Shown here piece by piece: positions 2,514 through 38,898 of a DNA stretch of 39,273 nt. Source of the DNA: Hyphomicrobiales bacterium. Lineage in GTDB: Bacteria > Pseudomonadota > Alphaproteobacteria > Rhizobiales > JAJFHB01. A model generated the notes under the pieces. That model saw only the letters and a list, made by a program, of their open reading frames with translations, made no database searches and had not been told where the DNA came from. Location: positions 1 to 39,273 of the forward strand of contig JAJFHM010000346.1 in the NCBI GenBank assembly GCA_021775625.1, written 5' to 3'. The translations under genes and the position numbers were made by a program. The stretch's first letter is position 1. Each line of letters opens with the position of its first letter.

Positions 2514-2597
2514 GATTCACTCCAAAAATTTTCCCGGCGCTTCCTGCCGTCCCCGAACCGGGCCGGTATTCGCGCCTGTTTGCAGGACCAGTCGTGG

Positions 2598-2981: not shown

Positions 2982-3194
2982 TTCATCACTCCATGATTTT
3001 CCTGTTATTTCAAATACCTACACGCAACCATCTGTTGTTGACTCTTCGAGTTCCTCTGGGACAATGCGGGTGTGCCGCAGTCATCTCAGTGTCTGTAAAT
3101 GCTGTGATTGTCGAATAAAAATAAATGCCCATTTCGGCTTGGCCCAGCGGCGAATGAGAGATCCATCACACGCTCGCAACGGGAGGAGCACATC

Positions 3195-3590
3195 ATGGTC
3201 AAGAAGACATTCAACAGTCCTGACGACATCCATCACCCTTTCAGCCATTATTCACATTCGGTCGTTGTCGAGGGCATCGACAAACTCATCTTCTGCGCCG
3301 GCCAGGTCGCGGGAGACGGAGAAGGTAATATTCTTGGACCCGAAGATTTCGAAGCCCAGGGCGAACTCGTCATGGCCAACATGAAGCAGGTTTTGAACGA
3401 GGCCGGCGCCGAATTGACGGACGTCATCAAGCTGGTCAGCTATGTCTGCAGTCCGCATGACGTGATTAAAGTTCGCGCCCTGGTCAAAAAGCACTTTCCG
3501 GTCAATCCCCCGGGCAATACGATCTGCGTTCTGCGTGGTCTCGCACATCCCGACTACCTGCTCGAAATCGACGCGACTGCCGCGGTGTAA
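3195..3590 (+). CDS. RidA/YjgF-family protein lacking the catalytic Arg
   Basis: ORF 3108-3590; ATG at 3195 preceded by gggaggag; LIFCAGQVAGDGEGNILG...VLNEAGAELTDVIKLVSYV...PPGNTICVLRGLAHPDYLLEIDATAAV. Confidence 0.88.
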   Translation: MVKKTFNSPDDIHHPFSHYSHSVVVEGIDKLIFCAGQVAGDGEGNILGPEDFEAQGELVMANMKQVLNEAGAELTDVIKLVSYVCSPHDVIKVRALVKKHFPVNPPGNTICVLRGLAHPDYLLEIDATAAV

Positions 3591-3593
3591 TCG

Positions 3594-4688: not shown

Positions 4689-4752
4689 AGCCAAATCCTG
4701 ATCGGACGCGGGACAACCGGCACCATCCCGGCCCAGGTTTTTCACGCCCTGG

Positions 4753-7032: not shown

Positions 7033-7035
7033 GAT

Positions 7036-9117: not shown

Positions 9118-9207
9118 GTTTACACTCCCTGTTTTATCGGCGCATCTTGCCTATGGCACCGCATGACCCGCAACCGGGCTGAACCTGATTGACCCGCTCA
9201 ATATGCC

Positions 9208-11007: not shown

Positions 11008-11031
11008 TGTCTCGCCTCCTCTCGTCCTGCT

Positions 11032-12531: not shown

Positions 12532-12686
12532 GGTTTATCGGATCGCCTGTGATGTTGTTCGCAAGATGCGGGGAAACCCGGCGCAAGTGCCAAGTGCTGA
12601 GCTTTCCACGTTGAACAGTTGTCCACTATCAGCCAAACGCAATCGAAGGCTTCACCTTCGAACACCGCTTGGATTTCGGTGTCGGC

Positions 12687-12717
12687 CAAAGACCCGCCCG
12701 AACCGAGCGGGTCTTTG
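12687..12717 (-). terminator. Intrinsic hairpin between SBP and ATPase genes
   Basis: Perfect 11-bp stem CAAAGACCCGC / GCGGGTCTTTG with 9-nt loop, immediately 3' of the minus-strand SBP stop. Confidence 0.65.
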
Positions 12718-12734
12718 ACCAAAGAGTGTTTCGT

Positions 12735-13871
12735 CTATTCGACGAGAGTGGCGCCCGGTTTCCAGCCCGGTGCAGCAAAGTCGATCCCGACGAGAGAATC
12801 TTCGAACTGCCCGATGTTTTCAGGGGTATAGGCCCTGATCGGAACGAACATCTTTTTCGGAACCGGATTGCCTTCCAGAATGTGGACCAGCATGTATGTG
12901 GCGTACTTGCCTTCAAGTGCGGCGCCTTCGCTCAGGCCCCAGGCAAACCAGCCCTGCTTGAGAAATTCGATTGATTCCTCATCCATGTGGACGCCGGTGA
13001 CAAACACGTCACCGGGTTTCTTGCCAGCAGCGCGCAGCGCGGAAATGGCGCCTTTGCACTGGAAGTCGGCTGTACAGAATATAAGCTTCATGTCGGGCCA
13101 CGTGGCCAGGGCATCTTCTGTCAGCCGCTGGGCGACCGTTCTGTCCATCTCATGAAATCTTTCACCGAGGATGGTCATGCCGGGTGCCAGTTTGGCGAGG
13201 GTTTCCTTGAAGCCAAGCGCGCGTTGCTTGCCCCACTCCACGCCCGGAGGTCCGTTGAGCATGAAGATCTTGGCGTCTGCGGGCATGCGTTCGGCCGCGA
13301 GTTGGGCCTGGATGATACCGGTTTGATAATCATTTATCGAAACGCCCGGTGCGCCCGCATAGGATGTCGGGATCAAGGCGCTCGTGGTCGGGATGCCAGC
13401 ATCCCAGGCTTTCTTGACCGGCACGGAGACGGCAGAGTAATCGACCGCTGAGATCACCATTCCGTCGACGCCGCGGGCGATGAAATCCTCGATATCGGAA
13501 ATCATTTGCCCAAGTTTCAAATAGCCTCCGGCGGGACGCAGATCCAACTTCAAACCCAATTCTTTCGCCGCCTCATAGGCGCCGTAGGCAACCGCTACCC
13601 AATAGGGGTCGCGAACGTGGGGAATGACCATTCCAATATGATACTTTTTGGAGGCTTTGGGCTTCCACCAATCGATGTTTTCACCATCCCGCAGAACCCA
13701 CGTACCAGTGGGTTCCGCTCCGTACATCGCCCGATACTGCTCGACCGTAACAGTGCGGCCGGCTTCTTCGGCAGTTGCCTGCGGCGCAGATATAATCGAT
13801 GAAGATGCAAAAAGGCCAAGTACGGCAAAGGATAATATCCGGATTTTATTTTTAAGCTTTAGTATTTTCAT
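12735..13871 (-). CDS. TorT-like/sugar-type ABC periplasmic binding protein
   Basis: 378 aa; N-terminal signal peptide; WWKPKASKKYHIGMVIPHVRDPYWVAVAYGAYEAAKELG...DIEDFIARGVDGMVISAVD. Confidence 0.88.
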   Translation of the reverse strand: MKILKLKNKIRILSFAVLGLFASSSIISAPQATAEEAGRTVTVEQYRAMYGAEPTGTWVLRDGENIDWWKPKASKKYHIGMVIPHVRDPYWVAVAYGAYEAAKELGLKLDLRPAGGYLKLGQMISDIEDFIARGVDGMVISAVDYSAVSVPVKKAWDAGIPTTSALIPTSYAGAPGVSINDYQTGIIQAQLAAERMPADAKIFMLNGPPGVEWGKQRALGFKETLAKLAPGMTILGERFHEMDRTVAQRLTEDALATWPDMKLIFCTADFQCKGAISALRAAGKKPGDVFVTGVHMDEESIEFLKQGWFAWGLSEGAALEGKYATYMLVHILEGNPVPKKMFVPIRAYTPENIGQFEDSLVGIDFAAPGWKPGATLVE

Positions 13872-13937
13872 CTTATTCCTCCCTTTATGCCCCCTACAAC
13901 GTGTTCTAAAAGGTAAAAAACTCTATATATGCCACTC

Positions 13938-14936
13938 TTATATATCTCCTTTCTGGCGATAGCGATCTACAACTATTGCCGCAATAATAATAATACCTAT
14001 CACCATTAGCTGAACGAATGATGATACGTTGTACAAATTCAGACCGTTCTTGATGATTGAAAGCATCGCGACGCCAACGATGATGCCGAACACCCTTCCG
14101 ACGCCACCGCCGAACGCAACGCCGCCGATGACCGCTGCGGCTATTGCATCGAGTTCGCGTCCAGATCCCATATTGGGAGCGCCGATACCCCCGCGCGACG
14201 TCAGCACCGCTCCGGCCGCGCCGGCGAACAGACCACAGATGACGTAAGCGAGGATTCTGGTGCGCACGATCTTAATGCCCGCCAATCGGGCCGCCTCCCG
14301 GTTGCCGCCGATGGCATAAGTGTGCCGACCCGCAGTCGTGCGCCGAAGATAGAGGTACAGGAGGGCAAAGCCGAGTGCGCTGACAAACACGGCAAACGGT
14401 ACCGGGCCGATATGGCCGTTGCCGAGAAACAGCATGCTGTCAGGAATATTTCCGTGCAGAGGGATACCGCCTGTGGAGTAAAGCGCTAACCCGCGAACCG
14501 CCGTCAGCGTCGCCAGGGTGACGACGAAAGCGTTAACCCCCCAAAACGCGATAATCGAACCATTGACCAACCCAACAATGCCGCCGACCAGGATCGCAAC
14601 AATGATCCCCGGGATGACACCGAAGGTCCAAACTGTGCCCACCATACACACGCTGGTCAGCGCAATGATGGAGCCGACCGAAACATCCACGCCGCCTTCG
14701 ATGAGAACCACCGCTTGACCGCAAGCCAGCAGAGCAAGTGGCGCCGCCTGCCGGAGGACATTTTGCGCGTTCAGCAGCGTTGCGAACCGCGGCTCAAGGA
14801 GTGAAAACATAATAATCAGCGCAATGAGGAAAATGAACAATCCCCATTTGAGCGCGAATTGCCCGATCACCTGAGCGGCGTCGGCAGAGTTCGATCGAGC
14901 GGTGCCGGAGGCCCCGTGAATGTCATCATCCGACAT
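13938..14936 (-). CDS. Sugar-type (RbsC-like) ABC transporter permease
   Basis: 332 aa multi-TM; VLIEGGVDVSVGSIIALTSV, TYAIGGNREAARLAGIKIVRTRILAYVICGLFAGAAGAVLTSRGG. Confidence 0.93.
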   Translation of the reverse strand: MSDDDIHGASGTARSNSADAAQVIGQFALKWGLFIFLIALIIMFSLLEPRFATLLNAQNVLRQAAPLALLACGQAVVLIEGGVDVSVGSIIALTSVCMVGTVWTFGVIPGIIVAILVGGIVGLVNGSIIAFWGVNAFVVTLATLTAVRGLALYSTGGIPLHGNIPDSMLFLGNGHIGPVPFAVFVSALGFALLYLYLRRTTAGRHTYAIGGNREAARLAGIKIVRTRILAYVICGLFAGAAGAVLTSRGGIGAPNMGSGRELDAIAAAVIGGVAFGGGVGRVFGIIVGVAMLSIIKNGLNLYNVSSFVQLMVIGIIIIAAIVVDRYRQKGDI

Positions 14937-22481: not shown

Positions 22482-23150
22482 TCAACGGCCAATCAAAAAG
22501 CTTCTGCACCCGGCAAGTGTGCGCCGTTGTTTGAAATCGATGACGTTGTCGGCCGGATTCTGAAGCGCATTGACGGCGCGCACATACAGCGGCAACGCGT
22601 GAGAATAGGCGTCATAGGGGCGCATCCGCGCCACCATCCAGTCAAGCTTGGCGCGGGCATCGGTGGCAGAATATTTGCCGGTTTGCACCCATTCATTCAC
22701 CAGCCAGTCCAATGACTCAAGGAACGACAGGGAGTCCGCGGCCTGCAGAATGTCCTCCTCTGGATTGCCTCCGATTTCGTGACGCAATATGAGGCTGCGG
22801 ACCTGGAGAATGAACGCCTCATCAGCCTTGTTGCCATCGCGAAGCCACTCCTCGACAACATCGGCGGAGCGCACCGAGTGGGCAAACAGGTAATCGGCAT
22901 CATCGAAACGATCCGGAGTACTGGTCGGACCCCCGGGGAAAAACCGTTCTGCGTCATGGACCAACGCGGCAAACTTCAATGCGTCCCCGGCTTTGCCCGA
23001 AATCTTCATCGCCCAGGCCCTGGTGCACAGCAGATGCTCAAGCTGATAAAACCCATCAAGCCAGTCAACTGCCGCCAACTCCAGGCTACTGAAAGTGGCA
23101 TCGGCGTAGCGGCCGGCAAGCTCGTCAGCCATAGTCGTATCGTCATCCAT
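22482..23150 (-). CDS. HD-domain (phosphohydrolase-like) protein
   Basis: 222 aa; YQLEHLLCTRAWAMKI...FAALVHDAERFFPGG...LILRHEIGG; overlaps the CoxS-CoxL stop by 8 bp. Confidence 0.65.
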   Translation of the reverse strand: MDDDTTMADELAGRYADATFSSLELAAVDWLDGFYQLEHLLCTRAWAMKISGKAGDALKFAALVHDAERFFPGGPTSTPDRFDDADYLFAHSVRSADVVEEWLRDGNKADEAFILQVRSLILRHEIGGNPEEDILQAADSLSFLESLDWLVNEWVQTGKYSATDARAKLDWMVARMRPYDAYSHALPLYVRAVNALQNPADNVIDFKQRRTLAGCRSFLIGR

Positions 23151-26061
23151 CTGGGCTGGCCGGCATCGTGGTTGTCAGATGTTTGCCGTGCAGTGCGCGC
23201 CAGACAGTTTCCGGTGTTATCGGCAGCTCAGAAATCTCGACGCCGAAATCGCTCAGCGCGTCGCAAATGGCATTTGCGACCGCAGCGGCCGGTGGGATCG
23301 TGCCCACTTCGCCAACGCCGCGCACTCCAAACGTGGTCGTTGGCGACGGCTCCTCGGTGTGCAACAGCTCAATGGGCGGAACATCGGCAGCCATCGGCGC
23401 GAAATAGTCCATCATCGTACCGTTTATCAATTGCCCGGTTTCCGGGTCGTATCGCAGCTCTTCGTTCAGTGCAGCGCCCAGTCCCTGCACGACAGCACCG
23501 CGCACCTGCCCTTCCACAAGCAGCGGATTAATCTGCGTGCCGCAATCATGCACCATGATGAACCGCTCAACCGAAAATTCCCCGCTCTCGGCATCGACCG
23601 AAACGACCGCGGCCGCCGTGCCGAATGAAAACGCGGCCTCCGCAGGCTCGAAACTGGCAGAGGCTTCCAGCCCCGGGCTATCGCCTGCCGGTATCCCCTG
23701 CCCCAGTATGGCGCCGCTGAACACTCTCGACAGTGGCACTTGCCGTTCATGGTCGGATATGTGCCGGACCACCCGGCCATCGACAACAATTTCTTCGACG
23801 GGCGCCTCCAGAATGGCCGCACCCAAACGCAATGTCTTTGAGAGAAACTCTTCGCCCGCCTGCTTGATCGCGCCAGAGGCGGCAATTATCGTGCGGGAAG
23901 CAAAGGCGCCTGTGTTGAGCGGCGACGCAGCCGTATCGCCGGCATGGACATGGATGCAGTCAAAATCCACACCGAGCACATCGGCGCAGACTTGCGCAAA
24001 GGCGGTTTCGCTGCTCTGGCCAAACGTTGAAACACCTGTGTAAAGATCAACTCCGCCCGTCCTGTTGGCCCGCAAGGTAACGCTCTCGTGGGCGCCATAT
24101 TGCGAGCCCCGATGCGCCAGAAAACGGGCACTGGCGTAGCCTGTGCGTTCCACAAATGAGGCTAAACCGATACCTGCAAATCGCCCGTCCGGCCGCTGTC
24201 GGTTCTCGTTCAATCGGTGCGCAGAATAATCCACCGCATCTGCAGCCATTTGCAGTGTTCTCAAGTAGTCACCGCTGTCATAAATCACACCACTTGGCGT
24301 GGTCCAGGGCAAATCCTCCGGCGCCAGCATATTCTGTTGCCGCAGCATCAGTGGGTCGGCGTTGAGTTTGCGTGCCAGGCGATCGATGAGCACTTCAAGC
24401 GCGAAATTCACTTCCGGCTGCCCATAGCCGCGATAGGCTCCGATAGGCGTTCTGTTCGTCAACGCAACACTGCGTTCGACCGAGCCGTCGGCAACCTTGT
24501 ATGGGCCGGCGAACACCACGCTCGATAATTGCGCGGAACCAAACGAGGAGTTCCAACCACCGAGGTCGGTAGTGTACTTGTTCTTCAGAGCGACGATCCG
24601 GCCGTCATTTCGGGCACCAATCGTATAGTGATGCACCGCTCCTCGTCCGTGGGTGCTGGCGCGAAAAAACTCCAATCCGTCTTCGATCCATTTTACCGGA
24701 CGACGGGTGGCCATGGCGTGCAGGCAGGCCAGCACATCCTCGGGATAAACCCCAAGCTTCATCCCAAAGGCACCACCAACATCACTTGCGCTGACGCGGA
24801 TGCTCCCTTCATCCAGGCGTAAAGATTCCGCCAACTGCTTGCGGACCAGATGCGGCACCTGGGTTGACGAATGGACCATCAGGTCGCGGGCACCGGGACG
24901 CCAGGTAGCGATCACACCGCGCGGTTCCATGGGCAAAGGGCTGACGCGATTAACCCGAAACTGACCCGAGACCACGAGATCCGCATCGCTCAGCTGTTTC
25001 TCGGGGTCGCCACCGCGAACCTCACTGCGCGACAGAAGATTGGACGCCAGGACATCAGAATGCATCACCGGGGCGGTGTCTTCCAATGCGTCGAGCGGAT
25101 CGGACACATGTGGCAGGGGTTCGTACTCGATTTCGAGCAATTCGATCGCATCCTCGGCAGCTGCCCGGCTGCTTGCAGCAATGCTGACAACCGGCTGCCC
25201 CTCATAAGTCGCCCTTTCCTGCGCCAACGCATAGTAGGACAGCTTGGGGGCTCCAGGCACCGGGCGCAACACCGTCAACGGATCGCTGAGGTCGCGAACC
25301 TCGGCTCCGGTCAGTATGTGCTTGACGCCGGCCACTACTGCGGCCTTGCTGATATCGATCGACTTAATTCGGACGTGCGGAAACGGACAACGCGCAACGG
25401 CCATTTCGAGTTGAAGGGAGAATTGCACGTCGTCGACAAACTGGCCGTCGCCGCACAAGAGCCGGTCGTCTTCCTTGCGCGGCGGGCTCTGGCCGATGTA
25501 GCGATCGACTTTGCATCCGTCTTGAGCCTCCCGTGGGGGCAAGGGAACATGCACCGTCGCACTGTCGGCGGCGGAACCCTCAATGTCATCAGGGCAGCCG
25601 AGATACTCTTCGACGGCTCGCAATATGCCTTCGTACCCGGTGCATCGGCACAGCACGCCGCTAATTTCTTCGCGAATTGTTTGCCGCGACGGCGGTGGTG
25701 TCCGATCAGCAAGGCTCAGCGCCAGCATCAAAAAGCCCGATGTGCAGAAGCCGCACTGCACCGCATGATGTTTTTTGAACAGGCTTTGCAACCTGCTCAG
25801 TTGGTCGCCTTCGGCAAGAGATTCCACCGTGCGGACCACTGCGCCATCCAACTGAGCGGCCAACATGATGCACGACTTTATCGCTTGCCCGTCCACTAAA
25901 ACGGTGCACATGCCGCACACGCCCTGCTCACAGCCAACGTGAACGCCGGTCATGCCCTGACGATGACGCAGAAAATCCGCGGCGTGCATGCGAACAGGTA
26001 CGGTATCCTCGATTTCCGAACCGTTCAGCGTGACCATGATTTCGATCCGATTAGCCGTCAC
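23143..26061 (-). CDS. Fused CoxS-CoxL molybdenum hydroxylase ([2Fe-2S] small subunit + Mo large subunit)
   Basis: 972 aa; GCEQGVCGMCTVLVDG and QCGFCTSGFLM, CRCTGYEGI (two 2Fe-2S sites), then large-subunit motifs DVGGAFGMK, AYRGYGQPEVNFALE, GVRGVGEVGTIPPAAAVANAI. Confidence 0.93.
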   Translation of the reverse strand: MTANRIEIMVTLNGSEIEDTVPVRMHAADFLRHRQGMTGVHVGCEQGVCGMCTVLVDGQAIKSCIMLAAQLDGAVVRTVESLAEGDQLSRLQSLFKKHHAVQCGFCTSGFLMLALSLADRTPPPSRQTIREEISGVLCRCTGYEGILRAVEEYLGCPDDIEGSAADSATVHVPLPPREAQDGCKVDRYIGQSPPRKEDDRLLCGDGQFVDDVQFSLQLEMAVARCPFPHVRIKSIDISKAAVVAGVKHILTGAEVRDLSDPLTVLRPVPGAPKLSYYALAQERATYEGQPVVSIAASSRAAAEDAIELLEIEYEPLPHVSDPLDALEDTAPVMHSDVLASNLLSRSEVRGGDPEKQLSDADLVVSGQFRVNRVSPLPMEPRGVIATWRPGARDLMVHSSTQVPHLVRKQLAESLRLDEGSIRVSASDVGGAFGMKLGVYPEDVLACLHAMATRRPVKWIEDGLEFFRASTHGRGAVHHYTIGARNDGRIVALKNKYTTDLGGWNSSFGSAQLSSVVFAGPYKVADGSVERSVALTNRTPIGAYRGYGQPEVNFALEVLIDRLARKLNADPLMLRQQNMLAPEDLPWTTPSGVIYDSGDYLRTLQMAADAVDYSAHRLNENRQRPDGRFAGIGLASFVERTGYASARFLAHRGSQYGAHESVTLRANRTGGVDLYTGVSTFGQSSETAFAQVCADVLGVDFDCIHVHAGDTAASPLNTGAFASRTIIAASGAIKQAGEEFLSKTLRLGAAILEAPVEEIVVDGRVVRHISDHERQVPLSRVFSGAILGQGIPAGDSPGLEASASFEPAEAAFSFGTAAAVVSVDAESGEFSVERFIMVHDCGTQINPLLVEGQVRGAVVQGLGAALNEELRYDPETGQLINGTMMDYFAPMAADVPPIELLHTEEPSPTTTFGVRGVGEVGTIPPAAAVANAICDALSDFGVEISELPITPETVWRALHGKHLTTTMPASPDG

Positions 26062-26131: not shown

Positions 26132-27157
26132 CTAAGAGGATGGCTGCATTTCCTTGACCACCACATCGCCGTCGATGACGATTGGCTCATCGTCGAGAAA
26201 AAGGCTGCAATCGCGCATTGGGATATCGAGGTGGCAGGCGGTGTCGTTGAGCCCGCCCAGCTCGTTGTTCGGACCGGTTGAGAACATCACATTCCCGTAA
26301 AAGGAACGCAGCTCCATCCCCATACCGCCGGGGAATTGCGTCAGTCCATGCCAATTGGCACGCTCGTCCAGCCCCCATCCAACATGCGACATGCCGTTGC
26401 CTCTGGGGTCTTTGAATGCGTCCATGTAGCTCTTGATCAGGTCGGCCTCGATCCCGCCGCGAATGTCTTGCACGAACCCTTTCTCGATCGTGTACGTCAC
26501 CGGCTCGCGCACATATGAGTTGAACGGCAAAAGCACATCGCCCATTCCGAGGACGATCTGCCCGTCAACACCATCATCGGCACCGCCGGTAAAGACGAAG
26601 CCTGCCGGCCAATGATCCCAGCGCCCCGGCTCATCCGTGTAGCCATATTCGCTAATGGTCGGATAGACGCCAAGTTTGTAAGTGATGTCGGTTCCGTGCG
26701 GGCTCGTAATCCGCATGTTTTTCGCCTTGGACAAAATTTCGGCACCCACCTCGACGCGTTCCCGGATCTCTTTTGACGGCATCAGCCTCGCCAATAGCGG
26801 CGCCGGTTCGACAGCGGTGAGAACACGCGCTCCGGCCGCCTGGATGGCCATTTGCTCAGGGCTGAACAAAAGGAATATGAGATCGACCACCATATCGGCC
26901 TGTTTGAGTGCCTCAACCGCTTCCGCGTTCTGGGCCAACTGCGAAATACCAACTTCCCAACTCCCCGATCCCGGCTGTGGTGTCGGCAGACGCATATGAT
27001 AAATCTTGGCGCCAAGTGTGCGGCCGGCATTCAAAAAGGCGTCGGCATAGTCCAGCCGCTCATCGCCCTGTGACAGCACGACGACACTCTCGCCTTCGTG
27101 AACTCCACTCATCTCGAGTTGAATTCGGCAAATTTCGTTGAGAGAATTTTGATCCAT
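26132..27157 (-). CDS. nicX: 2,5-dihydroxypyridine 5,6-dioxygenase-like ring-cleavage enzyme
   Basis: 341 aa; ISEYGYTDEPGRWDHWPAGFVFTG, VLGMGDVLLPFNSYVREPVTYTIEKGFVQDIRGG, MSHVGWGLDERANWHGL, FSTGPNNELGG, CHLDIPMRDCSLFLDDEPIV as recalled from NicX, with the H...H-x-D ligand set retained. Confidence 0.85.
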   Translation of the reverse strand: MDQNSLNEICRIQLEMSGVHEGESVVVLSQGDERLDYADAFLNAGRTLGAKIYHMRLPTPQPGSGSWEVGISQLAQNAEAVEALKQADMVVDLIFLLFSPEQMAIQAAGARVLTAVEPAPLLARLMPSKEIRERVEVGAEILSKAKNMRITSPHGTDITYKLGVYPTISEYGYTDEPGRWDHWPAGFVFTGGADDGVDGQIVLGMGDVLLPFNSYVREPVTYTIEKGFVQDIRGGIEADLIKSYMDAFKDPRGNGMSHVGWGLDERANWHGLTQFPGGMGMELRSFYGNVMFSTGPNNELGGLNDTACHLDIPMRDCSLFLDDEPIVIDGDVVVKEMQPSS

Positions 27158-27190: not shown

Positions 27191-28015
27191 CTACGACTTG
27201 CGGACACCCGGTAGCAGCGGAGCCAGGACGTCGAAAAATCCTTCGAAATTGTCCCACGGCACCATATGGCCGGCGCCGGGTACCGACAGAATTGGAATTG
27301 CCGGATTGGCCGCCGCTAAATCCGCTGCAGCCTGGGCAGGAACGACAGGGCTGTCCGCGCCGCGCACAAGTGTCGCCGGGGGTGCGATCTGCGTCCAGTA
27401 TTCGAAAAAGTCCTCGGTCTGAAACCCCTCATGGGTTTCCACAACCGCCGTTTCATCACAGGTGGCCAAAATATCGGCGCGCAGTTGCAACTCGCGCTCC
27501 GGCCATTTGGGGTAAAAGCGCCGCACCTGCTCCACCGTGGTTCCCTGCTGGGCTTCATGCAACTGCGTCAGAAAGGCCTCGCGGTTCGTGGGGTAAGGTC
27601 CACGCCCGGGCCCTGAAACGGGCGGATCGACCAAAATCAGGTGGCCATGCCCGTGCAGCGCAAATCCGACCGCATAGGCGGCCGCGATCCGCGCACCAAG
27701 TGAATGGCCGATAATCGTGGGAGCCCCCAGTTCGAGCGCCGAAACAATCCCGTCGACGTCCGCGGCATAATCGGCGAGCCGGTAGTTTCCCGACGCAGCC
27801 ACGGTCGTCTTCCCCCTTCCCCGCAAATCTGGAACCACGACCCTGAAGCCCATGTCCGACAAGGCTACAGCGATGAAATCTGCCGTTGCCGCCGGGCTGG
27901 TGATCCCCGGCAAGATCAAAATGGTGCCCCGTCGAGCATCACCATATTCCAGAAGATGATGGCTCAGACCGTTGGCCTGGATGGTGTGGGAACGTCCCGA
28001 AACGGCTATGCTCAC
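27191..28015 (-). CDS. nicD: N-formylmaleamate deformylase-like alpha/beta hydrolase
   Basis: 274 aa; LPGITSPAATADFIA, PDLRGRGKT, GHSLGARIAAAYA, LVDPPVSGPGRGPYPTNRE, VPGAGHMVPWDNFEGFF resembling NicD; GTG start overlaps the upstream TGA. Confidence 0.8.
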   Translation of the reverse strand: MSIAVSGRSHTIQANGLSHHLLEYGDARRGTILILPGITSPAATADFIAVALSDMGFRVVVPDLRGRGKTTVAASGNYRLADYAADVDGIVSALELGAPTIIGHSLGARIAAAYAVGFALHGHGHLILVDPPVSGPGRGPYPTNREAFLTQLHEAQQGTTVEQVRRFYPKWPERELQLRADILATCDETAVVETHEGFQTEDFFEYWTQIAPPATLVRGADSPVVPAQAAADLAAANPAIPILSVPGAGHMVPWDNFEGFFDVLAPLLPGVRKS

Positions 28016-28191
28016 GCGACCGCCTCCGCTTGCACCGGCAATGAGCCAAGGGCTAACCCTGCATCAGCAACCTCCGGGGCATGAAAAGTTGCCTCCCGCA
28101 CATTCCGCTCGGAATGTCGGCGCATCAGCTCCGGGATCTCGGTTTCCATCGTCGTGTTTGAACTGGGTACGATCAATCCGATGCGGTGCAT
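28012..28191 (-). pseudogene. Truncated/fused maleate isomerase (NicE)-like ORF, 59 aa
   Basis: Hand translation: MHRIGLIVPSSNTTMETEIPELMRRHSERNVREATFHAPEVADAGLALGSLPVQAEAVA*; N-terminus is the NicE/Asp-Glu racemase-family RIGxIVPSSNTTMETEIP motif; SD agggagga upstream; stop overlaps nicD GTG (GTGA). Confidence 0.75.
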
Positions 28192-28879: not shown

Positions 28880-29751
28880 GACGACACCTCGCTGGCGGCG
28901 GCTGCGCGTAGGTCTCTAAGAGTGCGCCTGAGATGCACCGTAACCAGATGCGTCCGGTACTGCTCGCTCGCCCGAATGTCGGTCTGCGGAGAAATCTCTG
29001 TGCCGGCGATTTCCGCAGCTTCGCCGATGTCCCCGTCGGTCAGATCCGAACCCTCCAGCCGCGCGGCTGCCTTGATGGCAAGAACCGGAGTTTCATCCAC
29101 ACCGCCCAACCCGATCCGAATATCTTGCCACTTACCCGAAGCCGATCGATTGCCGCAGACAGCAACCGACATGACCGCAAAATCATTGTGCCGTCGACAC
29201 ACCTCGTAAAAGGCGAAATGATCCGGATGCTTCGGAAAGGTGATTTGGGTGACCATTTCGCATGCGTCGATGGCAGGAAAGTAAGAGCCTTCATAAAAAT
29301 CCGGCATCGAAATTTCGCGCGCACCGTTTGCGCTGACAACCCGCACGCGGGCGCCCAACACCAACGCACCCAGCGGCATTTCGGCGGTTGGATCGCCCTG
29401 AGCGAGGCTTCCGCCAATGGTGCCTCGAGCGCGAACCTGGCGGTCGCCGACCCATCGCACCATCGCCGCAATCAGGGGCAGGCGGTGGGCAATGACCGGT
29501 GACGTCTCGATCGTATTGTAGCGCAACAGGGCGCCGAGGACCGTATCGTCGCCGTCGACATCAACACCATCGAGATTGGGAACGTGGTTGATATCCACCA
29601 GCGCCGGCGGCCGCCACAGGCGCATATTCATCATCGGCATCAGGCTTTGCCCACCAGCGAGGATGCGCGCGTCTCCGGAATAGTCGTCCAGCAACCGCAG
29701 GACCTCCTCCACCGACGCGGCCTTGTGATAGATGAAGTCCGCGCTCTTCAT
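28876..29751 (-). CDS. CoxM-like FAD-binding medium subunit of molybdenum hydroxylase
   Basis: MKSADFIYHKAASVEEVLRLLDDYSGDARILAGGQSLMPMMNMRLWRPPALVDI...TIGGSLAQGDPTAEMP; start at Met50 of the track ORF; ATGA overlaps with both neighbours. Confidence 0.93.
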   Translation of the reverse strand: MKSADFIYHKAASVEEVLRLLDDYSGDARILAGGQSLMPMMNMRLWRPPALVDINHVPNLDGVDVDGDDTVLGALLRYNTIETSPVIAHRLPLIAAMVRWVGDRQVRARGTIGGSLAQGDPTAEMPLGALVLGARVRVVSANGAREISMPDFYEGSYFPAIDACEMVTQITFPKHPDHFAFYEVCRRHNDFAVMSVAVCGNRSASGKWQDIRIGLGGVDETPVLAIKAAARLEGSDLTDGDIGEAAEIAGTEISPQTDIRASEQYRTHLVTVHLRRTLRDLRAAAASEVSS

Positions 29752-30845
29752 GACTTCGAAGCGTCGGAGTTGGAAGCGGCGACCTTGACGCCCGACAATC
29801 GCGACAAGACGTGATCGACAGGTGATTTTGTGGCCGCGATCGGCCGGCTGGGTGATTTGCGGCTCCAGACCGTTTCGGGCCGGACCTGCAACACCCAAAG
29901 GTCGTCATCCGTCCCGATCGCCCACTCGATGTCCTGCGGCGCGCCACGGTCGGCCTCGATCCGTTTGCCCAGCTTTGCCAGAAACTGGATGTTCTCGTCG
30001 CTTAGACAGACCATCTCCTGGCGGGACGGCTCAATTGGCGCCAACCCGACCGTACCGGCGTCTGGTTTGAAGCGATACTCTTCGGTTTGCGTCGCGACTT
30101 GCCGCTTCAAAACATCAAAGGTCACCTTGTCGATGACGAACAGGCTTGGCGTGATGTCGCCCTTGACAACCCCCTCACCTAAACCCCAACACGCTTCGAA
30201 AACGATCTTGGAGCGGTCGCCGGTGAGAGGATCGAGCGTGAACATGACCCCCGCTGAGCGGGCCTGAACCATTTGCTGGACGCCGACGCACATCGCAATA
30301 TCACCCTGCGTGATCACGGTGTCTCCATCCCGCTGGTACGACAGGACTGTCTCGCTAAACATACCCGCCCAGCACATCCGCATATGCTTGAGCACGTCAT
30401 CTGCTCCCGAAATCCATAAGTAAGTCTCGTATTGGCCAGCGAAGCTGGCGCCCGCGAGATCCTCGGATTCACCGCTTGACCGGACGGCAACCGGCACGTT
30501 GGCGCATGCTGTGCGAACCTCCAATTCCGCATAGCTCTTTCGCACTGTTGCTTCCAGGTCGAGCGGCAAGTCTGCGGTCATAATCGTTTCGGTCAGATGG
30601 GCCGTTTCGGCCTGAATGTCAGCCAGGGCCAGACCGGGGACCGCCTGCCGCACACGCCTGGCCTCACCGACAAGTCCCGCAGCGTCCAGAAAGTCCCGAT
30701 ATGCCACGGTGGTGATGCCAAATCCCGGCGGCACCGCATAACCGGCCGCCATCGAGGTGGCCAGGCTCGAGAACTTGCCGCCCAATAGCGGATCCCCCGG
30801 CGCCGCGGCGTCGTCAAGCCATACGATGCGCGAAGCCGCGGTCAT
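29748..30845 (-). CDS. PEP-synthase N-terminal (ATP-grasp) domain protein, phenylphosphate synthase beta-like
   Basis: 365 aa; LGGKFSSLATSMAAGYAVPPGFGITTVAYRDFL, VAVRSSGESEDLAGASFAGQYETYLWI, MFTLDPLTGDRSKIVFEACWGLGEGVVKGDITPSLFVID. Confidence 0.85.
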   Translation of the reverse strand: MTAASRIVWLDDAAAPGDPLLGGKFSSLATSMAAGYAVPPGFGITTVAYRDFLDAAGLVGEARRVRQAVPGLALADIQAETAHLTETIMTADLPLDLEATVRKSYAELEVRTACANVPVAVRSSGESEDLAGASFAGQYETYLWISGADDVLKHMRMCWAGMFSETVLSYQRDGDTVITQGDIAMCVGVQQMVQARSAGVMFTLDPLTGDRSKIVFEACWGLGEGVVKGDITPSLFVIDKVTFDVLKRQVATQTEEYRFKPDAGTVGLAPIEPSRQEMVCLSDENIQFLAKLGKRIEADRGAPQDIEWAIGTDDDLWVLQVRPETVWSRKSPSRPIAATKSPVDHVLSRLSGVKVAASNSDASKS

Positions 30846-32719
30846 TACCCCGACTTTTCAACTATGCGTACGAGCCCGACATTGCCGTCAACTTCGATAA
30901 TGTCGCCGGTCGAGATAAGTGTCGTGGCATACCCGGTTCCAACAACTGCGGGCAGGCCGTACTCGCGTGAGATAATGGCGGTATGGGCCATGATGCCTCC
31001 GACATCCGAGACGGCGGCAGAAATTTTCGGGAAGACGGGCGCCCAACTCGGCGCGGTGATGCGGCAAACCAGGATGTCGCCATCCTCGACTTCATAGAGC
31101 TGCTCGGTCGCGGTGATGACCTTTGCGCGGCCTTTGACCTTGCCGGCAGATGCCGCAACACCGCGCAACTGGTCGCTAGATGTCGTATCAACGCCAATCC
31201 ATTCATCGACCGTTTCCTGGGTGATGCCCCAAAGCATGATGGTGAGTGGTTCTGTAATCGTTTCGGGCGGCGTCCCAAGTGCCGGCGGCGGCGACCATTT
31301 CGCCAACACATCGCGAATGCCGCGCCGGCGTTCGATAATCGGGCGCCAGTAGATTTCGCCGCGCGATTGAGAGCCCGTCGCCCAGCCGATCAGCAGGTCA
31401 TAAAGCGCGTCGTAGATTTCATGACGATGCAGATAGAAAATATCTTCGCGATCGTCAAAGAAGTTGCGCGTGACGAATATGTCGCCCAATTCCCGAACCT
31501 TTGACCAGAAAATCGAATGGTGCCAGTGCTCCACATAAAAATTGTGGTCTTCGACAAAGGGGAACACCTTGCGGGTCAACGCGACCAGCCCGTCGAAGGC
31601 TTCGCGGTCCTCATCTGTTGGCAAGTGTTCGCGATACTCCGCGGTAACGCGTTCGCGCCGCGCGACGATCTTATCCAGCGGACGGCGCACGTCCTCACCG
31701 CGTTGCAACGCGGAGATGTAACCAGAAATCGCAGACAGCGGCAGCCGCAAATCGTCCATCCAGACCGGATCGGAATGCGTATATCCAGCTCCCGTTGAAT
31801 ACCAGAACCAGGGATCCTTCGCCGCTTCCAGGGCTTCCAGCCATTTTGGACCATTCTCGGCCTTGGCTATCGCGCCGAGAACGCTGTCAGGGGAATTTTG
31901 CCCCAAAATGACGTCGGCGACGTCCAGTTCGACGGCGAGCGCGGCCAGGCCACGCAACTCGTCGTCAGGCCTGAACAGCAAGATGTCGATACCCGACACC
32001 ATGTCCGTTATCGTCTGGTCGGTAATGCCAGGAAATGCGCTTTGGCAGAATTCGCGAAAAGTAAGATAGGCGCCGTAGCCCAGGTTGAGCATCTCGAAAT
32101 GGTAGGACCCCATCTCGAGCATATTCTCAATCATACGGCTGTATGAGGTCAAAAGATCGTAGGATGAATAAAGCCCCCGATGCGAGAAAACGTGCTTTTC
32201 GTGCTCGTATTCTGGCAACGGTTCGAATTCAATTGCCTTGAGCCGCTCGATGCAGTCCTTGGCTTTGTCTTTCCAGTTTTCGTAAATTTCGTCCCAATTT
32301 TCGAAATAGTGGCCGGCCCGAGACGCAAAGATCTCGCCTCGCTCGGCCAGTTTGTCAGGGTCCGTGACCGAATTGGGGCTGATATAGAGATAGCCGTTGA
32401 TGACACGGTGATCGATGCCCATCGCGGGCGGCACCGGCCAAACACGGTTCGACATCTGGCTGGCAGCAACCCACCAGTTCTCGGTCATTATGGTGTCGAA
32501 CGGATAGAGTGGCTCCGGATTGTGCATCCCGTCGAAAAACCAGAACTTCGATTCTTCCAGTTCCCGCCGTTCGGGGCTGATGTGCATGTAATAGGGATAA
32601 AGCTCCTGCCAGCCCGCGGCACCCTTCGGAGAGGCAATGTCGAATGGACTGGAGAAGCCGGATTTAGAGGTCGATGCTTTTGCATCGGGGGCCTTGCCGG
32701 AACTTTGATTATTGCCCAT
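30845..32719 (-). CDS. PEP-utilizing phosphohistidine-domain protein, phenylphosphate synthase alpha-like
   Basis: 624 aa; C-term DILVCRITAPSWAPVFPKISAAVSDVGGIMAHTAIISREYGLPAVVGTGYATTLISTGDIIEVDGNVGLVRIV with swivelling His; TAATG overlap with beta. Confidence 0.85.
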   Translation of the reverse strand: MGNNQSSGKAPDAKASTSKSGFSSPFDIASPKGAAGWQELYPYYMHISPERRELEESKFWFFDGMHNPEPLYPFDTIMTENWWVAASQMSNRVWPVPPAMGIDHRVINGYLYISPNSVTDPDKLAERGEIFASRAGHYFENWDEIYENWKDKAKDCIERLKAIEFEPLPEYEHEKHVFSHRGLYSSYDLLTSYSRMIENMLEMGSYHFEMLNLGYGAYLTFREFCQSAFPGITDQTITDMVSGIDILLFRPDDELRGLAALAVELDVADVILGQNSPDSVLGAIAKAENGPKWLEALEAAKDPWFWYSTGAGYTHSDPVWMDDLRLPLSAISGYISALQRGEDVRRPLDKIVARRERVTAEYREHLPTDEDREAFDGLVALTRKVFPFVEDHNFYVEHWHHSIFWSKVRELGDIFVTRNFFDDREDIFYLHRHEIYDALYDLLIGWATGSQSRGEIYWRPIIERRRGIRDVLAKWSPPPALGTPPETITEPLTIMLWGITQETVDEWIGVDTTSSDQLRGVAASAGKVKGRAKVITATEQLYEVEDGDILVCRITAPSWAPVFPKISAAVSDVGGIMAHTAIISREYGLPAVVGTGYATTLISTGDIIEVDGNVGLVRIVEKSG

Positions 32720-33239: not shown

Positions 33240-33983
33240 CTAAGCATCGTCAAGCTCTTTGAGACGCTCCAGCGCCATGCTGCTGGACTTTTCGATGTGC
33301 GACATCATCAACTTTTCTGCCCGTTCGGACTTACCGGAAGCAATGGCATCGAGTACAGCAGTGTGCTCTTTAAGCGCTCTCTTGAGTGTCGCACTTGAAT
33401 ATTTGTATCTCGAACGATAGGTGACGGTTACCGCCAGCACCTGCCGCACCAGAGTCAACAATAGCTGGCTTCCGGCGGCCGCCGCGATGGCTTCGTGAAA
33501 AGCCAGATCCGCCTGCGCCTGTTCGAGTGATGTTCCATCGGTTCCCAGCCGCTGCTGCGCGGCCAGCGCGTCAGCAACTCTGTCGAGCCCCTGGCGGTTT
33601 TGAGCAAGCGCCGCGCTGGCCGCGGCATGGGCTTCAAGCACCCGGCGGACCGAAAATATCTGAGCGATATCGCCGTAGGTGACGCGCCGCACGCGGGCGA
33701 AACGCCCAGGCTCCAGATCGACAAGCCCTTCGCCCTGCAGCGTGAACAATGCCTCGCGCACCGGGGTCCGGCTTACGCCGAGTTCCTTGGCGAGTTCGCG
33801 TTCCCGCAGCGGAGAGCCGGGCGCCAATACACCGCCCAATATTGCCTTGCGCAGTACTTGCGCCACACCTTCGCTGGTGCGCATGGCCATCGGCCCGTCA
33901 ATCAATCCTCCCAGCAAATCCGCCATTGGCGGCACCTCCAACGTCGTTCCCAACCAAAGCAGTGTTGTAAACGGTTCCGTCAC
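33240..33983 (-). CDS. GntR-family regulator, FadR/FCD subgroup
   Basis: 247 aa; VAQVLRKAILGGVLAPGSPLRERELAKELGVSRTPVREALFTLQGEGLVDLEPGRFARVRRVTYGDIAQIFSVRRVLEAHAA; a later start (Met20) is possible. Confidence 0.93.
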   Translation of the reverse strand: MTEPFTTLLWLGTTLEVPPMADLLGGLIDGPMAMRTSEGVAQVLRKAILGGVLAPGSPLRERELAKELGVSRTPVREALFTLQGEGLVDLEPGRFARVRRVTYGDIAQIFSVRRVLEAHAAASAALAQNRQGLDRVADALAAQQRLGTDGTSLEQAQADLAFHEAIAAAAGSQLLLTLVRQVLAVTVTYRSRYKYSSATLKRALKEHTAVLDAIASGKSERAEKLMMSHIEKSSSMALERLKELDDA

Positions 33984-34869: not shown

Positions 34870-36231
34870 TTACCACTCCAGTGCCAGGACCCGCACCGGC
34901 GATGCCTCAGCATCTCTTAGATTCAGCGGCATCATCACGATGACCGGATGGTCACTGCCAAGTGCGCCCATGTTGCAAAGGTTCTTGAGGATGCACACGC
35001 CCCGTTCAAGCAACACGGCCTCAGCGTCCAATTGATCCTTTCGCGCAGATGCGGCGCCGAGCGCCTTTCTGCCCGCATCGAGCTCAAAGTCCGCTCCGAC
35101 GACCGTGTATCCCGCATCGGCGATCCACCTGGCCGCGTCCGCGCTGAGGCTGGGCGAAAACGCAAACCAGCCCGCATCGTCATAACACACCCGCTCGTCA
35201 AATCCGGATCTCAGCAGAAGGATGTTGTCTGAATGCACTTCACCGACCGCCGAAAGCAAGATTTCAGCACTGATGGTGCCCTCATTCGCCATACCTGTCA
35301 GGTCCGCGATGTCCGCCCGGCGCTCCAACTGCTCGCCCATGAAACCATCAATGCCGATGCCCGCACCAACATATTTCGGGGTCAGCAGATGGGTGTGAGA
35401 ATGTCCGGCGAATCGCACGCGCGTTTCCTGGACCGGATCACCCTGTTCAAACGACTTTGCCAGGCCTGTCGAGACCTTGCCCATCCAGTTCTCTGTGACC
35501 GGCAATGACAGATCGGTGATGCGTGGGTCGGGTCCGGGCCATTCGGTCAGTGCGACCGGACTTGCCGGACCGCCGTCGGCGCCGGGCAGGCGCAAGGGCC
35601 AGCCCACCAGAAAAACACGGTCCTGCTCGATGGCACTCAGTTTGACCACGTGCTCCAGATGCATGAGGTTGGCACCCAGCACAATCTGATGTTCGGTGAA
35701 TTCCGGATTGGTGACCAGCCTCCCGTCCATCTCGCGTGCCACGTAGTCCTGCGGAAAATCGATTACCAGCGCCCGGCAACCACGCTCGACAATCCACTGC
35801 GAGCCGTCCGCGTCGACATATGGCGATTTTTGCCAGTAGTCGCCAGTGCTGTGCGGGTGCACTTCGTGCAGATTGGAACGCAAAATCAGAAGGTCACCCG
35901 CCTTGACGTGGTCACCGCGTTGCTCCAGGACGTCGGCATTCACGGCACCCGATGGAACCAGATCCGACACGTCCACCACAGCGGCCTCGCCGCACAGTTG
36001 GTTCAGGTCGCAGTCGTCCAGCGTCCGGCCGCCATGGATCATGTGACACGGCGCGTCGACATGGGTGAACCCGTGTTTTGGCCAGTCAACCCCGGTTTCG
36101 GGCAAGCAGCCGTCTCCAGGGTCCAAATGCAACGTGTCGCCACTCCAACTCCAGTGTGAGCTGATCTGATTGCTCAGGCAAATAACAGCCACCTCGTTAT
36201 CCTCCGCGTGATTCATTGCCCTTGACAGCAT
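34870..36231 (-). CDS. Tandem-domain cyclase-family protein, N-terminal domain motif intact
   Basis: 453 aa; N-domain KHGFTHVDAPCHMIHGG; C-domain GHSHTHLLTPKYV (degenerate); likely start Met6 (36216). Confidence 0.82.
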   Translation of the reverse strand: MLSRAMNHAEDNEVAVICLSNQISSHWSWSGDTLHLDPGDGCLPETGVDWPKHGFTHVDAPCHMIHGGRTLDDCDLNQLCGEAAVVDVSDLVPSGAVNADVLEQRGDHVKAGDLLILRSNLHEVHPHSTGDYWQKSPYVDADGSQWIVERGCRALVIDFPQDYVAREMDGRLVTNPEFTEHQIVLGANLMHLEHVVKLSAIEQDRVFLVGWPLRLPGADGGPASPVALTEWPGPDPRITDLSLPVTENWMGKVSTGLAKSFEQGDPVQETRVRFAGHSHTHLLTPKYVGAGIGIDGFMGEQLERRADIADLTGMANEGTISAEILLSAVGEVHSDNILLLRSGFDERVCYDDAGWFAFSPSLSADAARWIADAGYTVVGADFELDAGRKALGAASARKDQLDAEAVLLERGVCILKNLCNMGALGSDHPVIVMMPLNLRDAEASPVRVLALEW

Positions 36232-36262
36232 TTGGTTGGTCCCTAATCATACGCCCGTCAGA

Positions 36263-36274
36263 ATTGTTAACAAT
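36263..36274. promoter_or_regulatory. GntR-type palindrome ATTGTTAACAAT
   Basis: 12-bp perfect palindrome fitting TNGTNNACNA, in the divergent 36216/36342 promoter region. Confidence 0.5.
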
Positions 36275-36341
36275 ATACAAAATGCTTAACGTGGCCCAAA
36301 AAGCTGACCCCATGCGAACGGGCCAAGGGAGGACATTGGAA

Positions 36342-37475
36342 ATGTCACGCAGCAAGGATTTGAAACAACGCACTCCGCAGGGCACGACACGCCGCGCGCT
36401 TTTGAAGACCACCGCCAAGGGTGCGGTCCTCGGCGGGACGGTACTGGCCGCTCCCTGGATCTGGAACAGAGACGCTCTTGCCGCCGGCGAAGTGAACGTA
36501 CTGGCCTTCGGTGGATACGAAGAGCCCGGCATGCTCGACGGTTTCGAAAAGACCGGCATCAAAGTGAACCTCAAAATCCACGACGGTTCGGACGAGGAGA
36601 TGGTGGCCCTGATCAAATCGTCGCCGGCCGGCACGTTTGACATCATCACCCCGACAAGCGCCTACGTGCCCAAAGCCGCGAAAGATGGTCTGCTTCTCGA
36701 GATGAACCCGGGCGATTTCCCGCTCGGAGACTACTTCGACGTCATCGCCAAATGGCCGCCCTGCTATATTGACGGCAAGATGTACGGTCTGATCAACCGT
36801 TTTGGTTATTACGGCATCACCTACAACCACAAGAAGTTTTCCGAAAGCGACGTCTCCAGCTACTCGGTGTTGTTCGACAGCGCGGTCAAAGGCCGTGTCG
36901 CCCTGTTTGACTGGTTCCTGCCGAACATGGGCTGTATGTCGAAATACAACGGCAACGCCATGCCCTACGACCTCAACGATGCCGCCTTCAAGGGACTCGC
37001 CGATCGCGTTATGAGCCTGCGTCCCCAGGTCGGCCTCGTCGGCAACACCTCGCAGGTGATCCAGGCGATGGCCGGTGGCAGTTACGATCTGGCGATCGCC
37101 GGCGAGTGGGTGCAGGCCGGCATGTATGACGATGGACTGCCGTTCAAGGCGTTGGTGCCCAAGGAGGGTGGCGTGACCTGGGATCAGGCCGTCTGCGTTG
37201 CCGCCAACACGCCGCGCAGGGAAAACGCAATCAAGTTCGTGCAGTATGTCGCTGGACCGGATTTTCAGTCGAAGCTCGCGGTCGCCAAGACCTATTACAG
37301 CATGGTCCCGAACAAGAAGGCGGCGGCCATGCTTCCTGCAGACAAGCGCGAACTGTTGAACCTGGCGGATCTCGACAAGTTCGATGAAGTGTTCATGGCC
37401 AACCTGTCGCCGCGCAAGGATCCGGACAACCGGCAGGCCTGGCTCGACACCTGGGAGAATTTCAAGAACGCCTAA
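36342..37475 (+). CDS. Spermidine/putrescine-type ABC substrate-binding protein with Tat signal
   Basis: ORF 36216-37475; ATG at 36342 after agggagga; TRRALLKTTAKGAVLGGTVLAAPWIW; NVLAFGGYEEPGMLDGFEKTGIKVNLKIHDGSDEEMVALIKSSPAGTFDIITPT. Confidence 0.87.
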   Translation: MSRSKDLKQRTPQGTTRRALLKTTAKGAVLGGTVLAAPWIWNRDALAAGEVNVLAFGGYEEPGMLDGFEKTGIKVNLKIHDGSDEEMVALIKSSPAGTFDIITPTSAYVPKAAKDGLLLEMNPGDFPLGDYFDVIAKWPPCYIDGKMYGLINRFGYYGITYNHKKFSESDVSSYSVLFDSAVKGRVALFDWFLPNMGCMSKYNGNAMPYDLNDAAFKGLADRVMSLRPQVGLVGNTSQVIQAMAGGSYDLAIAGEWVQAGMYDDGLPFKALVPKEGGVTWDQAVCVAANTPRRENAIKFVQYVAGPDFQSKLAVAKTYYSMVPNKKAAAMLPADKRELLNLADLDKFDEVFMANLSPRKDPDNRQAWLDTWENFKNA

Positions 37476-37487
37476 TCCCTCACCTTG

Positions 37488-37523
37488 ACTGGACGCCGCA
37501 GTGCTTTTAGAGCGGCGTCCAGT
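37488..37523 (+). terminator. Intrinsic terminator/attenuator between SBP and cyclase
   Basis: Perfect 12-bp stem ACTGGACGCCGC / GCGGCGTCCAGT, 12-nt loop, followed by tcttt. Confidence 0.7.
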
Positions 37524-37557
37524 TCTTTCGCGTTCTCATTCCGGTCCGGGCAACTTC

Positions 37558-38898
37558 ATGGCGATAATTGACTGCTCACAGCTGATCGAACCCCACTGGT
37601 TGTGGGACACCTATCCGTACGTGTCGCAGACATATCACCTGGGCGATGAGTTCCAGGAGTTCGGTTTGAAGTGGTACGGCTCGGGTTTCACCTATATTTC
37701 AACACCCGGCTGGCATAACAAGGGCGGCAAGACGTTCGACGACTACCCAATGTCGGCCTTTGCAGGTGTGGCGGCGCTGGCCGATATCTCCGGCGCCGCT
37801 GAAACAGACGTCAGGACGATTTCCGACAAACTGGCCGATCTTGCGCGCCGGGACATCCTCATCCTGCGCACCGGGCATGCGGATGCGGTGCCAAGCCGCC
37901 GGCAGGAATACTGGCGCAATGCTCCGTCCGTTTCGGCAGAATGCGCGGACGCAATCGCCAGGGCCGGCTTCACTCACGTGGCGATCGATCTTTCATGCGA
38001 CGACATTCCGGCTCATCGGCCGGACGGCGAAGGCAGCTTTTCCAACCCGAACGGCGCATTTCGCACGGCGCTGCACAAGCGCGGGCTGCTGTTGACCGAG
38101 AATTGCGAGAACCTGAACAGTCTCGACCAGGGGGAAGTTTTCTTCGCGTCTCTTCCCCACTCCATCCCGAAGGGCACCACCAGCCCGACACGTCCGGTGG
38201 CCCTGACCACCTGGCCGTCGGACACGCCCCGCATGGTCGACGTTTCGACACCCATCTTCAATCACTGGCGGTGGAAGCTTGACGTCTATCAGGGCCGCAG
38301 CATGGATGCAGGCGACGATGCTGACGAAACCCATTTTATCTTTGGCGGCCATGGGTTCACGCATTGCGATGCGCCTTGCCACATGCGCAAGGGCGCCTCG
38401 ACAATCCATCAGATGCCCAATTCCGGACTCGACCAGTTCATCCACGACGCAACGCTGGTCGACTTCTCGGATCTCGATCTTCCATTCCCGATCACCCGTG
38501 ACCTCGTCAAAGAGCGGGCCGCCAACAAGTACCGGCCGGGTGATCTGATCATTCTGCGCAGCGATCTTACAAACAAGATGGGCTATGAAAGCCGCGAATG
38601 GCATCTCAAGGCGCCCAACCTGGAAGAAGACGCGGCGAAATGGATCGCAGAACAGAAACCTGCCGGTGTGTGCCTCGATTTTCCTCAGGACTACATCGCC
38701 CGCGAAATGCCGACGCGGCATGTCTACAACAATGAATTCGTCGCCCACCACGCCATATTCTCGGCCGACCTTCCATTTATCGAGGACCTGAAGGATCTCG
38801 GGGAACTCACCACCGATCATCCGTTCGTGATGGCGATCCCGCTGAAAATGAACTGTGTCGACGGCGCCCCGATGCGGGTGATTGCGCTCGAATGGTGA
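37558..38898 (+). CDS. Tandem-domain cyclase-family protein, C-terminal domain motif intact
   Basis: MAIIDCSQLIEPHWLWDTYPY start; N-domain GSGFTYISTPGWH (degenerate); C-domain GHGFTHCDAPCHMRKG; C-term DHPFVMAIPLKMNCVDGAPMRVIALEW. Confidence 0.85.
   Translation: MAIIDCSQLIEPHWLWDTYPYVSQTYHLGDEFQEFGLKWYGSGFTYISTPGWHNKGGKTFDDYPMSAFAGVAALADISGAAETDVRTISDKLADLARRDILILRTGHADAVPSRRQEYWRNAPSVSAECADAIARAGFTHVAIDLSCDDIPAHRPDGEGSFSNPNGAFRTALHKRGLLLTENCENLNSLDQGEVFFASLPHSIPKGTTSPTRPVALTTWPSDTPRMVDVSTPIFNHWRWKLDVYQGRSMDAGDDADETHFIFGGHGFTHCDAPCHMRKGASTIHQMPNSGLDQFIHDATLVDFSDLDLPFPITRDLVKERAANKYRPGDLIILRSDLTNKMGYESREWHLKAPNLEEDAAKWIAEQKPAGVCLDFPQDYIAREMPTRHVYNNEFVAHHAIFSADLPFIEDLKDLGELTTDHPFVMAIPLKMNCVDGAPMRVIALEW

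Follow-up and report, generated by a model that had tools for sequence, protein, structure and literature searches.

Kinase genes of the two-component aryl dikinase type in a molybdenum hydroxylase/NicX operon of a Hyphomicrobiales bacterium and a proposed phosphate relay

Results

The stretch of DNA analyzed here, referred to as the window, is contig JAJFHM010000346.1 (39,273 nucleotides, assembly GCA_021775625.1) of a Hyphomicrobiales bacterium, whose genome assembly is 62% complete and comprises 376 contigs. It carries an operon in which a kinase-like gene pair, alpha and beta, precedes genes for a molybdenum hydroxylase of the Cox type, for NicX- and NicD-type enzymes and for an HD-domain protein. 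Related loci were surveyed by scanning one genome per species, which gave 79 loci. A locus was called complete when the kinase, CoxM, CoxG and CoxL were all present (n = 26, including the window), and genes in the complete loci were counted with our own simple codon-usage gene caller. The features of the window are as follows:

33240..33983, minus strand: GntR/FCD regulator (Pfam GntR and FCD), upstream of alpha; relatives in 21 of the 26 complete loci
30845..32719, minus strand: alpha, substrate-binding and phosphohistidine (swivel) subunit, PpsA/CreH/HpeH-like; 624 aa; PF00391; NCBIfam PRK08296.1-5 above cut-off
29748..30845, minus strand: beta, ATP-grasp subunit, PpsB/CreI/HpeI-like; 365 aa; PF01326
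28876..29748, minus strand: CoxM-type FAD subunit of the molybdenum hydroxylase; PF00941 and PF03450
28226..28879, minus strand: CoxG-type SRPBCC protein with a hydrophobic C-terminal tail; PF06240 and tail sequence
28066..28188, minus strand: remnant of an Asp/Glu-racemase-type gene (maleate isomerase position), matching the start of the relatives' intact gene
27191..28015, minus strand: alpha/beta hydrolase, candidate N-formylmaleamate deformylase (NicD); PF00561; relatives in 20 of the 26 complete loci
26132..27157, minus strand: NicX-type 2,5-dihydroxypyridine 5,6-dioxygenase; match to 7cn3, E 9.6e-94
23143..26061, minus strand: CoxS-CoxL fusion, [2Fe-2S] and molybdopterin subunits; PF00111/PF01799/PF01315/PF02738/PF20256
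22482..23150, minus strand: HD-domain protein of 222 aa, proposed dephosphorylating enzyme; metal ligands and HD-superfamily fold

Both kinase reading frames are open and intact and overlap by TAATG. A first-pass annotation of this DNA had described them correctly, with the same coordinates and lengths, as an ATP-grasp protein and a larger protein ending in a phosphohistidine domain. It also had the operon continuing by ATGA overlap, which is true of the beta-CoxM junction; however, CoxM and CoxG overlap by GTGA, and by their coordinates CoxG and NicD, NicD and NicX, and NicX and CoxS-CoxL are separated by 210, 33 and 70 bp, respectively. Absent from that annotation were the HD-domain gene, which overlaps the CoxS-CoxL gene, and the maleate-isomerase-type remnant.

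The sole Pfam match of alpha was the phosphohistidine domain of phosphoenolpyruvate (PEP)-utilizing enzymes, PF00391, at its C-terminus (residues 545-615, E 5.7e-21), while beta matched the ATP-grasp domain PF01326 (E 3.9e-84). The nearest PDB match of beta was 9goj (E 9e-66), the HpeI subunit of hydroxyphenylethanone kinase (PMC12167813). The alpha motif SDVGGIMAH contains His579, a residue invariant across 39 aligned alphas, and agrees with the catalytic motif of two-component aryl dikinases as defined in PMC12167813, T/S-x-x-G-G-x-x-x-H with Met replacing the regulatory Thr; the ATP-grasp and the substrate-binding/swivel parts are likewise encoded by separate genes, as in those enzymes. An AlphaFold model of alpha (pLDDT 88.5) gave a full-length Foldseek alignment only with rifampin phosphotransferase (RPH) 5fbu (TMq 0.59), and pyruvate-phosphate dikinase (PPDK) and enzyme I matched mainly via the swivel domain. 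The same pattern, RPH-like over the whole length, was reported for HpeH (JBC 2025, PMC12167813). With His579 and the ATP-grasp motifs intact, the sequence identifies the pair as a two-component aryl dikinase like PpsAB, CreHI and HpeHI, with alpha and beta as its halves, and its predicted activity is probably the phosphorylation of an aromatic hydroxyl with ATP, releasing AMP.

Loci on annotated plasmids served as anchors for trees of both subunits. PpsA/B came from Azoarcus, where the locus also holds genes for a CBS subunit and phenylphosphate carboxylase; the cre-type anchors came from two Rhodococcus loci that include P450, short-chain dehydrogenase/reductase (SDR), ferredoxin, reductase and aldehyde dehydrogenase (ALDH) genes; the hpe-type anchor came from a Rhizobium locus that includes genes for biotin carboxylase and a HAD protein; and one annotated RPH completed the set. 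We assigned the labels "cre-type" and "hpe-type" according to the genes present. In the alpha tree, made with a quick method, the Cox-linked alphas formed one clade apart from every anchor (SH-aLRT 100). In the beta tree, made with a careful method, the same Cox-linked loci again formed one clade (support 97/90), which sat within the two-component kinases (93/91); four PEP synthases and three RPH-type rows fell elsewhere. The Cox-linked clade thus lies next to the Pps/Cre/Hpe kinases in both trees, with RPH apart in both and PEP synthase apart in the beta tree, although some long branches (Thermomicrobium, HpeI-type) are of uncertain placement. The NCBIfam profiles, the trees and the fold comparison all support the first-pass view of a phenylphosphate-synthase-like pair.

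Three narrower identities were considered and rejected. In the operon of the window, neither a CBS-domain gene (as noticed before) nor a phenylphosphate carboxylase gene was found, while both are present in the Azoarcus locus used as a control; this excludes phenylphosphate synthase in the strict sense. PEP synthase is excluded by the lack of a C-terminal PEP/pyruvate domain, by the division into two chains, and by the beta tree and the fold. RPH is excluded because there are two genes rather than a single fused chain, and because the pair forms a separate clade in both trees.

The survey tied the pair to its neighbors. At an alpha identity of at least 59% there were 41 loci, and CoxM was present in 38, the remaining three being on contigs that end too early; wherever the contig runs past beta (38 of 38), CoxM follows it, nearly always together with CoxG, CoxS and CoxL. 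Among the 38 loci with an alpha identity of 56% or less, none had such an operon, and four showed weak (26-32%) CoxM matches. The pair is locked to the hydroxylase/NicX operon. Two outcomes had been named as telling against the first-pass reading, namely that the pair would group with antibiotic phosphotransferases or PEP synthases, or be absent from orthologous NicX/Cox operons. As the trees place it in a separate clade beside the phenol kinases and CoxM follows it in every locus of at least 59% alpha identity whose contig reaches far enough, neither occurred.

In the complete loci, the HD gene was found in 25, NicX in 19 and NicD in 20; an isochorismatase-fold gene (candidate maleamate amidohydrolase) was found in 19 and an Asp/Glu-racemase-type gene (candidate maleate isomerase) in 18. 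The operon is rarely encountered: 60 related genomes yielded no close alpha relative. When members of the CoxL clade lacking the kinase were sought in 395 + 399 genomes, the only matches were in the genome of the window itself and on a single contig fragment of 2.7 kb. This fragment has no room for the pair, and the rest of that 98%-complete genome gave no alpha or HD match; the search says nothing beyond the rarity of the operon. Two loci, L036 and L038, carry two alpha copies each. An Amt-family transporter gene adjoins the GntR regulator in 13 of the complete loci (e.g., L017:7653-9068), and the window has no such gene.

The CoxL part of the hydroxylase carries the catalytic Glu in GVGE and the loop AYRGYGQPE, which differs from the cysteine-bearing loop of CO dehydrogenase. 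Nicotine-pathway dehydrogenases, at 38% identity, were among its best plasmid matches. CoxS and CoxL form a single 972-aa frame in the window; each has a gene of its own in the remaining 25 complete loci. The CoxG-type protein, judged from its family and tail, is probably a membrane recruiter. In the NicX-type protein, H258, H309 and D311 align with H265, H318 and D320 of NicX, which we take to be its Fe ligands, and they are kept in all 21 relatives covering those positions. Since this triad is intact, free 2,5-dihydroxypyridine is most likely the intermediate that would enter ring cleavage.

All 32 members examined share the five metal-ligand positions of the HD-domain protein (H39, H65-D66, H91, H124 and D139). 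The H...HD...D pattern of HD phosphohydrolases is present, with a Pfam HD score below cut-off. Its model (pLDDT 92.4) has an all-helical HD-superfamily fold, with HD proteins such as YpgQ as top matches. The same five ligands occur in HD proteins of the Rhodococcus cre-type clusters, which combine a kinase pair with P450, SDR, ALDH and an HD protein. The HD gene follows CoxL in most proteobacteria and CoxG in actinobacteria, frequently with a 4-bp overlap with its neighbor, and is also kept in loci without NicX.

Outside the core loci, the HD profile search matched just one place, a region of a Thermomicrobium roseum plasmid (NC_011961.1 56118-66286; L104), where alpha (28%), beta (40%), CoxL (29%) and HD (33%) relatives stand together with CoxM, CoxS and GntR genes. 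FAH-family, antibiotic-monooxygenase-type and cyclase genes stand there where NicX would. This independent and divergent copy is the strongest sign that the kinase, the hydroxylase and the HD protein form one functional unit. The association of a conserved HD-domain protein with the kinase and the hydroxylase is new in this analysis.

Discussion

What can be read from the sequence is the family of the kinase and the integrity of its active sites, the type of hydroxylase, the ligand set of NicX and the conserved grouping of kinase, hydroxylase and HD genes; from these we infer a substrate, an order of steps and a dephosphorylating role for the HD protein. We propose, with a probability of roughly 0.65 for the scheme as a whole, that the pair provides the activating kinase in a catabolic operon of the 3-hydroxypyridine type, in which: beta would bind ATP, and the beta-phosphate of ATP would move to His579 in alpha's swivel domain; alpha would hand the phosphate to the 3-hydroxyl of the pyridine, with AMP and Pi being formed; the CoxSL/CoxM hydroxylase, recruited by CoxG, would hydroxylate the phosphate ester at C6; the HD-domain protein would strip the phosphate to give 2,5-dihydroxypyridine; and NicX would open this ring, with NicD deformylating the product. 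A phosphate ester should be less electron-donating than a phenolate, which would favor nucleophilic attack at C6, and it could also trap the substrate inside the cell. The first-pass annotation had the pair phosphorylate an already hydroxylated N-heteroaromatic. A hydroxypyridine target is kept here as a proposal, but the step order is revised: phosphorylation probably precedes ring hydroxylation, and the target is probably the 3-hydroxyl rather than the hydroxylated product.

The kind of cluster is already known, whereas the roles proposed here for the kinase and the HD protein are a hypothesis. No described pathway had been thought to combine these genes, and this has to be corrected. In strain HP1, a molybdenum hydroxylase with a separate SRPBCC subunit, together with PEP-utilizing and PPDK-like proteins, reportedly yields 2,5-dihydroxypyridine, and the latter two proteins are said to be involved in HpdA activity, with their function needing study. 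The window matches the layout of this 3hpd/HpdA cluster, as defined by that account, in its kinase-like pair, CoxM/S/L, separate SRPBCC protein and 2,5-dihydroxypyridine dioxygenase, and differs from it in the CoxS-CoxL fusion and in the reduction of the isomerase to a remnant. The fusion and the remnant may each be either real or an effect of assembly. The four-component 3-hydroxypyridine dehydrogenase (HpdA) cluster of Ensifer adhaerens HP1 (Wang et al. 2020, AEM 86:e01313-20) is cited in PMC11962113 and PMC10117386, and the latter quotes a spread over Alpha-, Beta- and Gammaproteobacteria, Actinobacteria, Rubrobacteria and Thermoleophilia. The taxonomic range of the loci surveyed agrees with this spread.

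Aerobic aryl kinases in catabolic operons are also known, namely CreHI and HpeHI (PMC12167813). CreHI, of the 4-cresol pathway of Corynebacterium glutamicum, is likewise a two-component aryl dikinase, but a P450 oxidizes the methyl group there, unlike the molybdenum hydroxylase of the window; the Rhodococcus cre-type kinases are about 41-45% identical to the window pair and belong to a different clade. HpeHI, of the hydroxyphenylethanone pathway of Rhodococcus rhodochrous GD02, has the same two components. Phosphorylation, transformation and dephosphorylation were shown in vitro for the Hpe pathway (PMC9618137, PMC12167813), in which the carboxylase acts on the phosphorylated substrate only and a phosphatase follows (PMC9618137). 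This order is a precedent, by analogy, for the relay proposed here, although the Hpe pathway uses a biotin carboxylase and a NagD-type phosphatase where the window has a molybdenum hydroxylase and an HD protein. PpsABC of Thauera and Azoarcus has the same alpha/beta split (the pair of Azoarcus KH32C is 45%/38% identical to that of the window), but it has a third, CBS-type subunit and, in anaerobes, supplies a carboxylase. For a phosphorylated hydroxypyridine intermediate, no report was found in the open literature, which is weak evidence as most subscription papers lay outside the search.

Several observations weigh against the relay. NicX is missing nearby in 7 of the 26 complete loci, so that the substrate there need not be 3-hydroxypyridine. 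The maleate-isomerase-type remnant, in frame between NicD and CoxG, is 59-73% identical to the first ~40 codons of the relatives' intact gene, the rest being deleted, and the lower pathway of the window may therefore finish elsewhere or remain incomplete. The resemblance of the HD protein to those of the cre-type clusters is only distant (hhalign probability 22%), and the fold matches of its model, cyanamide hydratase included, reach E ~0.01 at best.

These last points bear on a first alternative, that the kinase activates the substrate but another enzyme removes the phosphate, with the HD protein acting as, for example, a hydratase, oxygenase or regulator. HD folds are functionally diverse, with hydratases among them. 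However, HD genes are coupled to kinase pairs both in the cre-type clusters and in the Cox-linked module, and the five metal ligands are common to both HD groups; we consider this alternative unlikely and regard the HD protein as the putative dephosphorylating enzyme.

Somewhat less probable is the notion that the pair spends ATP on maturing or activating the hydroxylase, a role that CoxD-type ATPases play for CO dehydrogenase, and leaves the pyridine untouched. Loci without NicX keep the link between the pair and the hydroxylase genes, and the reported involvement of the two proteins in HpdA activity is also compatible with such a role. However, alpha retains a full RPH-like architecture for binding small molecules, both subunits are placed beside phenol kinases, and the conserved HD phosphohydrolase-like gene would be left without explanation.

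That the kinase works after hydroxylation, on a pyridone or dihydroxypyridine as first suggested, is quite improbable: dihydroxypyridine offers a free 5-hydroxyl and aryl kinases take many phenols (PMC12167813), but NicX, with its ligands intact, acts on free 2,5-dihydroxypyridine, and phosphorylation would block this next step. A split PEP synthase or antibiotic phosphotransferase standing by chance beside a pyridine operon, as the automatic annotation of relatives (PEP-utilizing enzyme; PEP synthase) might suggest, is hardly credible given the missing PEP/pyruvate domain, the trees and the conserved operon.

If the phosphate relay is correct, it accounts for the need for a kinase pair in 3-hydroxypyridine hydroxylation, a point reportedly left open by Wang and co-workers, and it extends the phosphorylate-transform-dephosphorylate logic of Cre and Hpe to molybdenum hydroxylases and N-heterocycles. 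With the conserved HD protein as a named candidate phosphatase, a three-enzyme reconstitution becomes simple. More tentatively, and at somewhat less than even odds, the genes could represent a "protect-hydroxylate-deprotect" cassette, composed of a dedicated aryl dikinase, a molybdenum hydroxylase acting on the ester only and an HD phosphatase, that is reused for several N-heteroaromatics, including in the NicX-less loci and in Thermomicrobium.

Other genes in the window and related loci

In L007, L008, L011 and L020, the kinase, hydroxylase and HD module occurs without a nearby NicX gene. L011 and L020 carry RidA-like, deacetylase-like and NMT1-type ABC transporter genes, and this gene content suggests other substrates. 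A second catabolic cluster lies at 81-14936 of the window, with a CoxL-type gene (81-2513) and genes for a luciferase-like monooxygenase, hydantoinase A/B, an adenine-deaminase-like amidohydrolase and a sugar-type ABC transporter; the ATPase and permease families of this transporter also adjoin the kinase pair in L007, L008, L037 and L044. Adjoining the operon, at 34870-38898, a PotD-like solute-binding protein gene lies between two cyclase-family (PF04199) genes.

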